Assembly: GCA_947475275.1 (NCBI GenBank)
Contig: CANJNE010000014.1
Location: 1 to 32,708 of the forward strand
Direction of reading: 5' to 3'
Length of the DNA: 32,708 nucleotides
Source of the DNA: Flavobacteriales bacterium
Lineage (GTDB): Bacteria; Bacteroidota; Bacteroidia; Flavobacteriales_D; Crocinitomicaceae
Notes under the pieces: model-generated
Database searches by the model: none
What the model saw: the letters and a program-made list of their open reading frames with translations, nothing else
What the model was told of the DNA's origin: nothing
Translations under genes and position numbers: made by a program
Shown: positions 22,459-24,086 of the stretch, piece after piece
How the letters are laid out: each line of letters opens with the position of its first letter
Position numbering within the stretch: the stretch's first letter is position 1

Positions 22459-23058
22459 CTATTTAATCAATTGATTGAAAGATTTTATTGCTTTTGCCAT
22501 CATTTCGGCTATGTTTTTTTGATTAGCAGTAAATCCTTGGTCCCGACTTCTCAATTCATAGGTGATGCCATCAAGTATTTTTTCACCGTAAACATGATAG
22601 GTTGTATGATCCACCCCAACTTCAGGCGAAGCATTTTTATCTCCTTTAACAATGAGCTTTCTTTCGTAAAGAATGAGCTGAGGTTCATCTATCAAATATT
22701 TTATTTGAAAAAACTTATTTTGTTCGCTTAATTCTTTCTTTTTATTGACCATTCTATCTTTGTAATCACCAAAGTCCTCAATATGTAATTCAAATTTAGT
22801 TCCTGCAGTGATTTTCCAAAGAAAACTGTCATTGTGTTCAATTTCTGGTTTTGTCGATGCTCCTATATTAGCGCTAGCATCTGGGATCATTATTTGGGCA
22901 TTAAGTTCATGTTTGTCTAAAGTAATCAACTGAAATTCAGTATAGTCATTCATGTTGGAAGTAATCATTTGTTTATTTAATGTTTCTGGATCTTTACCTC
23001 CACAACTGGAAATAATAAACAAAATAAACATCAATGAAAACAAGGCGAAATTCTTCAT
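22459..23058 (-). CDS. lipoprotein of unknown function
   Basis: This 199-residue protein has a lipoprotein signal peptide ending at Cys19 (lipobox ISSC, then GGKDPE). The mature part is mixed alpha/beta with many charged residues, with a strand-rich middle (FLWKITAGTKFELHIEDFGDY, KLIVKGDKNASPEVGVDH) and a C-terminal helix (AEMMAKAIKSFNQLIK). I do not recognise the family. It is divergent from the MerR/cobalamin-type regulator gene, and the 152-nt shared upstream region holds repeats at 23092-23162. It is therefore a candidate target of that regulator, though this is inference. No downstream gene is close enough to suggest an operon. Confidence 0.7.
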   Translation of the reverse strand: MKNFALFSLMFILFIISSCGGKDPETLNKQMITSNMNDYTEFQLITLDKHELNAQIMIPDASANIGASTKPEIEHNDSFLWKITAGTKFELHIEDFGDYKDRMVNKKKELSEQNKFFQIKYLIDEPQLILYERKLIVKGDKNASPEVGVDHTTYHVYGEKILDGITYELRSRDQGFTANQKNIAEMMAKAIKSFNQLIK

Positions 23059-23120: not shown

Positions 23121-23140
23121 CAAAAATATATTGCGCTTGT

Positions 23141-23162
23141 TTATGCTTATAAGAAAGCATAA
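23141..23162. repeat. 8-bp perfect inverted repeat upstream of the MerR-type regulator
   Basis: TTATGCTT (23141-23148) and AAGCATAA (23155-23162) form a perfect palindrome with a 6-nt spacer, about 50 bp before the regulator's ATG. It could be an operator for the regulator or a hairpin in a leader RNA. Confidence 0.45.
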
Positions 23163-23210
23163 TTTATTTTACACAAATCATTTAAACGCTTGCCCTAGTT
23201 AATTTGAGTC

Positions 23211-24086
23211 ATGGCCGAATACAAGATAAAAGATTTGGAAACCCTTACTGGTATAAAGGCACACACGATTCGTATTTGGGAGAAACGTTATAATTTTTTG
23301 TCTCCTGATAGAACTGATACTCAAATCAGAACCTACACAGATGAAGAGCTGACCCTTTTGCTCAATATTGCTATTCTGAATAAGAATGGTATTAAAATTT
23401 CGAAAATTGCTGATTTATCCTCACAACAAATAGCTCAAAAGGTATGGGAAATTCGAGGTAAACACACAGTAGATAACAGTACTGAGTTGCTCATTCTGTC
23501 TTTAATCGAATTAGACGAGCAGCTCTTCAATACAACACTACAAAAAATCATTAATGAACGCGGATTAACAGGTGCATTTATCAATTACCTCATTCCTTTT
23601 TTGGATAGAATAGGTGTGATGTGGTTGGTGGGTTCTATAAGCACGGCTCAGGAACATTTTATTTCTAATTTGATTCGTCAGAAAATAATTAGTGAAACTG
23701 ATAAATTGGATATTCCGGCTTCATTTGAAAACCCTGTAATGTTGTTTTTGCCTGAGCACGAATGGCATGAAATCAGCCTATTGTTTTATCATTTTATACT
23801 TCGAAGTAAAGGATTGCCTACTATTTATTTGGGGCAAAGTTTGCCTTATGAATCGATGTTAGAATGTGTTGAAAAGCTTAAGCCTCGTGTTTTAGTTACC
23901 TCATGGCTAACAGCCACAGATGAAAGGTTCATTCTGAATTATTTTGCAAACCTTATCAAGGATACCAAAGACCTACCGATATATGCAGGAGGATTTCAAA
24001 TTGAAACTTTTACTGGAAAACTTCCTAAAGAAATCAATCGCATTTCTGATATTACCGTTCTCGATCAGGTACTTAAAGCAATATAA
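23211..24086 (+). CDS. MerR family regulator with CarH/LitR-like cobalamin-binding domain
   Basis: This 291-residue protein has a MerR-type winged helix-turn-helix (about 4-72: YKIKDLETLTGIKAHTIRIWEKRY), a four-helix B12-binding cap (about 90-165) and a Rossmann-like B12-binding domain (about 173-291). The cap carries the Wx9EH signature of AdoCbl-dependent photoreceptors: Trp138, Glu148 and His149. The second domain has Glu184-Trp-His186-Glu, corresponding to the E-x-H of CarH whose His is the lower cobalt ligand. The residue after Trp138 is Leu139; in Thermus CarH it is His132, which binds cobalt after light. CarH/LitR proteins repress genes such as carotenoid biosynthesis in the dark, but no such gene is in the window. 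It probably acts on its own divergent region. The 3' end overlaps the convergent neighbour by 14 nt. Confidence 0.88.
   Translation: MAEYKIKDLETLTGIKAHTIRIWEKRYNFLSPDRTDTQIRTYTDEELTLLLNIAILNKNGIKISKIADLSSQQIAQKVWEIRGKHTVDNSTELLILSLIELDEQLFNTTLQKIINERGLTGAFINYLIPFLDRIGVMWLVGSISTAQEHFISNLIRQKIISETDKLDIPASFENPVMLFLPEHEWHEISLLFYHFILRSKGLPTIYLGQSLPYESMLECVEKLKPRVLVTSWLTATDERFILNYFANLIKDTKDLPIYAGGFQIETFTGKLPKEINRISDITVLDQVLKAI

Follow-up and report, generated by a model that had tools for sequence, protein, structure and literature searches.

A CarH-like MerR regulator lacking the upper-ligand histidine and its predicted carotenoid and rhodopsin regulon in Bacteroidota

Introduction

The CarH proteins of Thermus (TtCarH) and Bacillus megaterium are the closest described systems to the regulator considered here. 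They combine a MerR helix-turn-helix (HTH) with a two-part B12 domain, carry a Wx9EH motif and a lower-ligand histidine, control carotenoid (crt) genes and recognise half-sites with a TnnACA core; all of these features recur in our system, the crt control and the half-sites as predictions. Known CarH operators are tandem 11-bp direct repeats of the form nnnnTnnACAn, and in TtCarH and 'many' myxobacterial CarH proteins the histidine that follows the tryptophan forms a bis-His light state (PMC9304148). In the TtCarH variant H132A, AdoCbl is bound, the dark tetramer is formed and photolysis gives a His177-Co-water state; the variant mostly remains a tetramer after light, and its authors cite an earlier report of disassembly (PMC10442372). 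Light-responsive CBDs with other residues at the His132 place are published: Arg in CtMerR of Chloracidobacterium thermophilum (PDB 8JBS/8JBT), and Gln or Tyr in the photocobilins SasPcob and AbDPcob (PMC11796333). The B12 domain of CtMerR resembles that of our regulator in fold (Z 18.0-18.1) but has 16% sequence identity to it in the structure comparison, and the photocobilins carry PDB labels of cobalamin-binding or GGDEF proteins rather than of MerR regulators. Class II LitR of Pseudomonas putida and P. mendocina is likewise MerR-type, with light-induced genes that include photolyase and cryptochrome-like ones, but is described as lacking a second B12-binding domain, and one such regulator works with a LOV protein (PMC9758184).

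In Bacteroidota, a MerR-family gene before crtI was noticed earlier in the proteorhodopsin-bearing flavobacterium Sediminicola sp. YIK13, as an annotation, with no operator, B12 domain or target described in that part of the report (PMC4732338). MliR of Bizionia, described as having no effector domain (PMC9478572), is ruled out as the identity of our protein. The switch that governs carotenoid and rhodopsin genes in this phylum is stated to be open in the cited papers: regulation of proteorhodopsin (PR) expression is said to need further work (PMC3587595), and the discussion of another study raises a possibly new light-induced regulator (PMC7064467). Among the open-licence papers listed we found no description of the operator reported here or of a CarH-like control of rhodopsin, and one could exist elsewhere. 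We describe a palindrome and its likely reader, which make the question testable. The window, i.e. the whole stretch of DNA that was analysed, comprises 32,708 nucleotides of a Flavobacteriales bacterium (assembly GCA_947475275.1, contig CANJNE010000014.1).

The regulator, its fold and its predicted cobalamin pocket

The window (GC 37%) belongs to a 2.68-Mb draft genome that is 95% complete, and the features discussed are as follows.

22459..23058, minus strand: lipoprotein, divergent neighbour of the regulator (homologous frames; no Pfam match)
23211..24086, plus strand: CarH/LitR-like MerR regulator with C-terminal B12-binding domains, 291 aa (Pfam, NCBIfam, phmmer, model)
23220..23423, plus strand: MerR winged helix-turn-helix, residues 4-71, with RIWEKRY recognition helix (Pfam MerR_1, 1.5e-14)
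23490..23687, plus strand: four-helix bundle, B12-binding_2, residues 94-159 (Pfam, 1.2e-6; model helices)
23622..23627, plus strand: codons of Trp138 and Leu139, at the places of the TtCarH Ado-stacking Trp131 and light-state ligand His132 (alignment)
23652..23657, plus strand: codons of Glu148-His149, TtCarH Glu141-His142 (alignment)
23736..24083, plus strand: Rossmann B12-binding domain, residues 176-291 (weak Pfam match; model against the TtCarH CBD)
23757..23768, plus strand: codons of His183-Glu184-Trp185-His186, His186 being the predicted lower cobalt ligand

The regulator frame opens with an ATG at 23211 and its stop ends at 24086. Some match at E <= 0.001 occurs in 127 of 150 family genomes, the nearest being intact frames with 50-66% identity, and we therefore regard the frame as a real gene; among named genomes, the best matches come from MAGs of Flavobacteriales, some of them named after lakes or ponds.

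The sequence-only reading had placed this protein amongst CarH/LitR-like regulators, and that assignment holds. The recognition helix conforms to RxWE[RK]RY and is followed by C-terminal B12-binding domains, the best relatives found by phmmer among PDB sequences are Thermus CarH chains (E 1e-19), and the solved structures nearest to an AlphaFold2 model (mean pLDDT 91.1; input, the window protein and 79 loci from named genomes) are the CBDs of TtCarH (Z 19.8, rmsd 2.2 for 200 residues, over residues 84-291), with CtMerR and the photocobilin domains ranking next (Z 16.9-18.4). The Pfam B12-binding match (0.0036) falls under Pfam's cut-off, and the Rossmann domain is recognised by its fold match. 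With 94.6 bits against NCBIfam NF052513 (TransRegCarH), for which the cut-off is 400 bits, the regulator is CarH-like and stands outside the TransRegCarH equivalog. AdoCbl is plausible as its cofactor, since the same genome encodes an ATP:cob(I)alamin adenosyltransferase.

Direct reading and phmmer, which pairs W138 with W131, L139 with H132, E148-H149 with E141-H142 and H186 with H177 of Thermus CarH (numbered as in PMC10442372), agree with the earlier residue assignments: besides Gly135, the protein has an intact Trp138-x9-Glu148-His149, the lower-ligand E/DxH motif as Glu184-x-His186, and Leu139 where TtCarH has the His132 of its bis-His light state. Leu139 had been taken for a peculiarity of this one protein, which is not the case. 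In alignment A2 (80 sequences, comprising the window protein and 79 of 80 named Bacteroidota loci, L176 left out), position 139 is Gln in 41, Leu in 31, Ile in 3, Met in 2, and Thr, Arg and Val in one sequence each, and in an alignment of 69 relatives from family genomes (distinct sequences only) it is Leu in 29, Gln in 15 and any of ten other residues elsewhere. Histidine occupies this upper-ligand position in 0 of the 79 named homologues and in 0 of the 69 family relatives. As far as these alignments tell, the absence of a His after the Trp is a group trait of the sampled Bacteroidota homologues.

The remainder of the pocket is conserved. W138, E148, H149, H186, G135, G208 and P212 are kept in all 80 sequences of A2, and E148, H149 and H186 are invariant in the 69 family relatives, two of which have Tyr for Trp138. 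The SignatureFinder motifs of light-responsive CBDs are there as GxxW, EH and GxxxP, and GxxH reads HxxH. The Gly place of GxxH holds Gly in 36, Asn in 24 and His in 16 of the 80 A2 sequences, and Gly in 6 and His in 38 of the 69 family relatives. In the window protein this residue, His183, sits three positions N-terminal to the lower-ligand His186, at the Gly place of the CarH signature.

These observations bear on the possibility of a cobalamin-independent regulator, similar to CarA or class II LitR, that senses light or stress by another route, perhaps via a partner such as the neighbouring lipoprotein. Such a protein would agree with the weak Pfam B12-binding match, the replacement of the GxxH Gly by His183 and the B12-free action of class II LitR regulators (PMC9758184), but it is at odds with the invariance of the lower-ligand His and of Wx9EH in 80 of 80 sequences, all the more as loss of the Trp marks the B12-independent CarA relative to CarH (PMC9304148). 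Moreover, the spacing of the motif D/ExHx2G/P-x41-SxT/V-x22-27-GG is kept in the regulator, with deviations at Ser189 and Leu233. The sequence-only reading had offered three options, a changed photoproduct, a light-blind B12 sensor and a protein that no longer needs cobalamin; with Trp138, Glu148, His149 and His186 invariant, the last is the least likely of them and appears to us very improbable.

The dimer contact has also changed. Trp185 and Ser210 of the regulator occupy the places of a TtCarH pair that, counting from His177, we take to be Arg176 and Asp201. This Arg/Asp pair acts as a salt bridge at the CarH dimer contact (PMC9304148). Arg was found at position 185 in 0 of the 80 A2 sequences; among the 69 family relatives, Arg occurs there once (partner Cys) and Lys twice (partner Ser), and in three the pair is turned round, as Glu-Arg or Glu-Lys. 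Judged by its residues, the window protein is unlike TtCarH in both its light-state ligand and its dimer contact and keeps the Ado pocket; on the same grounds, the dimer contact is still there in some relatives. Light-blindness does not follow from Leu139, since some published photoreceptors have Arg, Gln or Tyr there. By analogy with TtCarH, a changed photoproduct is expected, and as in its H132A variant, loss of the upper-ligand His can blunt the light output.

A candidate operator

Half-sites common to the promoters upstream of an ECF gene in the same genome and in related genomes define a candidate operator, the palindrome TTGTTTAA-N16-TTAAACAA, which stands there in tandem. Over 134 loci (1.55 Mb, overlapping loci removed), inverted pairs with <=1 mismatch numbered 104 at N16, 18 at N17 and 0-7 at every other spacing from 0 to 35, and everted pairs, which served as control, numbered 0-9 per spacing over the same range. 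With overlapping loci kept, there are 110 N16 and 20 N17 pairs, and 60 of 65 crt loci have a site. L094, L096 and L107, from other genomes sharing long identical stretches, were also dropped from the spacing and crt counts, which consequently err low.

The half-site includes TAAACA, which matches TnnACA and thus fits the CarH core. Its arrangement differs from the tandem 11-bp direct repeats of CarH operators, as the predicted operator, whose pairing with the regulator we infer, is an inverted repeat with N16. The inverted layout, together with the changed dimer contact, suggests another oligomer geometry. In the crt promoter of the same genome and at 16 other loci (17 of 88 site-bearing loci), the half-site abuts TAnnTTTG, which we take to be the Bacteroidota -7 promoter element; binding next to this element would block RNA polymerase, and this points to a repressor.

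The regulator gene itself has no good N16 operator, the nearest approach being a pair with 2 mismatches at spacing 24 (23137-23176), and autoregulation through the palindrome was dropped on this account. A perfect 8-bp inverted repeat, TTATGCTT-N6-AAGCATAA, lies just 5' of the regulator at 23141-23162 and is unlike the N16 operator; it was dropped as an operator because it was not seen by eye in the upstream regions of relatives. The ECF sigma factor was rejected as reader of the palindrome, given that, of 35 crt loci lacking an ECF gene, 32 have sites. No known RNA, cobalamin riboswitches included, reached the gathering threshold in a search of the window.

Predicted regulon

The target of the regulator had been left open in the sequence-only reading. 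The shared operator offers a predicted answer: a crt operon, the gene of a fasciclin protein and a rhodopsin gene, none of them on the regulator's contig. Four sites with <=1 mismatch occur in this genome (reversed control, 0). Two of them form the tandem pair before an ECF sigma-crtI-crtB-idi-PTPS operon (crtB at C39:1982-2707), a perfect site (C29:20488-20519) lies 8 nt upstream of the gene of a secreted fasciclin-domain protein bearing a T9SS tail, and a further perfect site (C116:5473-5504) lies 87 nt upstream of the rhodopsin gene. The photolyase gene of this genome (contig C4) was rejected as a target, its upstream region having no better than a pair at spacing 21 with 2 mismatches.

In 21 genomes of the same genus there are 48 sites (control 21). 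Gene reading covered 19 loci of these sites and placed 10 before ECF genes, 5 before fasciclin-like genes (Pfam check for two of the five proteins, that of the window's genome and L159) and 2 before rhodopsins, with 2 lacking a gene start within 350 nt. A <=1-mismatch site stands within 250 nt upstream of 17 of 30 family rhodopsin genes, compared with 0 of 30 in the everted control and 21 of 508 other genes; allowing 2 mismatches gives 21 of 30 (everted control 6 of 30), leaving 9 without. This set of 30 genes contains L122 twice and misses L138. In a separate count by locus, a <=2-mismatch site lies within 400 nt at 20 of 30 rhodopsin loci. PR expression in Dokdonia PRO95 is reported to be constitutive (PMC3587595), which may speak against control of rhodopsin by such a regulator.

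Three genomes of another genus carry 9-11 sites each, 31 in all (control 2). At the 15 loci read among these sites, the neighbours include the regulator itself, PTPS, glutathione peroxidase, a SOUL protein, a short-chain dehydrogenase, a flavin reductase, a TetR-like regulator, a TonB-plug protein and the gap between a rhodopsin and a beta-carotene dioxygenase; three sites lie 1.7, 2.3 and 3.0 kb away from photolyase/cryptochrome matches. The adenosyltransferase gene was rejected as a target in one genus, because in three genomes the sites lie 1.1-1.3 kb downstream of the match. The crt, ECF, photolyase and rhodopsin tags used throughout are short sequence motifs, with Pfam backing for the genes of the window's genome and for 9 of the 10 genes from other genomes that were run.

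The nature of these genes weighs on whether the regulator responds to light. Were it a light-blind, cobalamin-sensing repressor of the same regulon, AdoCbl alone would set DNA binding, as Leu139, the lack of His at 139 in the aligned homologues and the failure of most TtCarH H132A to come apart in light (PMC10442372) would allow. However, the predicted regulon is light-related, with crt and rhodopsin genes, a beta-carotene dioxygenase in a relative and sites near photolyase/cryptochrome matches, and photoreceptors with Arg, Gln or Tyr respond to light (PMC11796333), Gln being the commonest residue at position 139 (41 of 80). In addition, the crt genes of Chryseobacterium lacus are reported to be light-induced, its authors having found no car or lit operon (PMC7064467), and the order regulator-site-crtI-crtB occurs in a Chryseobacterium-labelled MAG (L220). 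On balance, we consider a light-blind regulator unlikely.

Co-occurrence of sites and regulator

In the family (G028, a fragment, and G085, an unrelated hit, excluded), the 125 regulator-bearing genomes have a mean of 3.23 sites (control 1.20) and the 23 genomes without the regulator 0.70 (control 0.91). In a sample of 118 genomes from the phylum, the corresponding means are 4.27 (control 0.68) for 22 genomes with the regulator and 0.33 (control 0.48) for 96 without, presence here meaning a best E < 1e-40, a threshold set after seeing the list. The p-values, 2e-9 and 8e-13 respectively, are optimistic, as the genomes are kin. At least one site is found in 20 of the 22 regulator-bearing and 25 of the 96 other phylum genomes (10 and 26 genomes, respectively, in the control). 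Lone one-mismatch sites can be chance and prove little, since the reversed control averages 1.2 per regulator-bearing family genome; the weight rests on the crt pair and on the recurring fasciclin and rhodopsin sites.

Where the genome has the regulator, 56 of 61 crt loci contain an N16 or N17 site with <=1 mismatch, and 60 of 61 do so when <=2 mismatches are allowed (1 and 10 of 61, respectively, for everted pairs); the sole locus without any site, L102, ends at a contig edge. Of the regulator-less crt loci (G013, G030, G033, G043, G048, G070 and G096, with G033 and G048 tagged by a crtB-like gene alone), 1 of 7 has a site, or 0 of 7 counting N16 alone; G101 (80% complete, with a perfect site) was dropped from this set, and so were G032 and G073, which are 84% and 73% complete, have cut contigs and show no site. 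The one exception, G043 (L114, 9821-9853), is 99% complete and yielded no regulator, and an N17 site with one mismatch stands before its ECF-crt operon; either the regulator was lost recently or its gene was missed.

Could the palindrome be read by another, co-occurring regulator, with the window protein controlling something else? The pairing of operator and protein is drawn indirectly, the window gene has no good site, and a few genomes have sites and no regulator match: in the phylum sample, G233 and G262 have 3 sites each (controls 1 and 2) with no regulator among the matches listed, G204 has 3 sites and a regulator match at 28% identity, and, conversely, no site was found in G161 and G225, although both carry the regulator. 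Nevertheless, sites track the presence and absence of the regulator in both family and phylum, the half-site has the CarH TnnACA core, and G030, G070 and G096, which lack the regulator between the lipoprotein and crtI, also lack a site in the 16 kb read. Sites often lie close to the regulator gene as well: 37 named loci out of 80 contain one, against 2 for everted pairs. Named loci show the orders regulator-site-crtI, regulator-site-ECF and regulator-site-ECF-photolyase. A separate reader thus seems highly improbable. In Ancylomarina, Labilibaculum and Bacteroidales loci (L203, L190 and L222), regulator, operator and ECF sigma gene follow one another, with no crt-tagged genes in the stretch read, so the switch may have uses beyond pigments.

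Proposed model

We propose that the window protein belongs to a Bacteroidota kind of CarH-like repressor that depends on AdoCbl, is probably released by light and controls carotenoid and rhodopsin genes, and consider this prediction likely. The residues, the fold match, the operator pattern, the genes downstream of the sites and the co-occurrence of sites with the regulator were observed directly; from these we infer DNA binding, AdoCbl binding and repression and, probably, release by light. In the dark, the regulator would bind AdoCbl with His186 as the lower ligand, Trp138 and Glu148 would hold the Ado group, and the AdoCbl-bound form would sit on its TTGTTTAA-N16-TTAAACAA operators. Light would cleave the Co-C bond and, without an upper-ligand His, the photoproduct would be an aquo/hydroxo-cobalamin instead of a bis-His state. 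Loss of Ado or movement of Glu148 would then alter the oligomer and free the DNA.

The predicted operator and regulon, rhodopsin included, are the new content of this study. We give about even chances to a wider reading, in which these proteins form a separate Bacteroidota branch with no bis-His state and an oligomer and operator geometry of its own, acting as the phylum's master light switch for crt, rhodopsin, photolyase-linked and fasciclin genes and, in relatives, beta-carotene dioxygenase. Under this wider reading, it would supply the regulator that has been missing for rhodopsin expression in part of the group. If our proposal is true, it would also show a B12 photoreceptor working without a bis-His state, which bears on CarH-based optogenetic tools.

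Genomic neighbourhood

A by-eye count gives 60 family genomes in which regulator and crtB are no more than about 7 kb apart; in its own genus, the regulator is mostly found elsewhere. Homologues of the divergent lipoprotein gene were found as 30 frames in 144 loci searched, 23 of which adjoin the regulator in the divergent orientation; in G030, G070 and G096, it lies 0.2-1.2 kb from crtI, and both regulator and operator are absent from the 16 kb read. Three genomes of the same genus, G074, G037 and G137 (L031-L033), carry a distant copy of the regulator with 36-45% identity, that of G137 beside crtB, and it is possible that these copies stand in for the orthologue of the window gene as a replacement.
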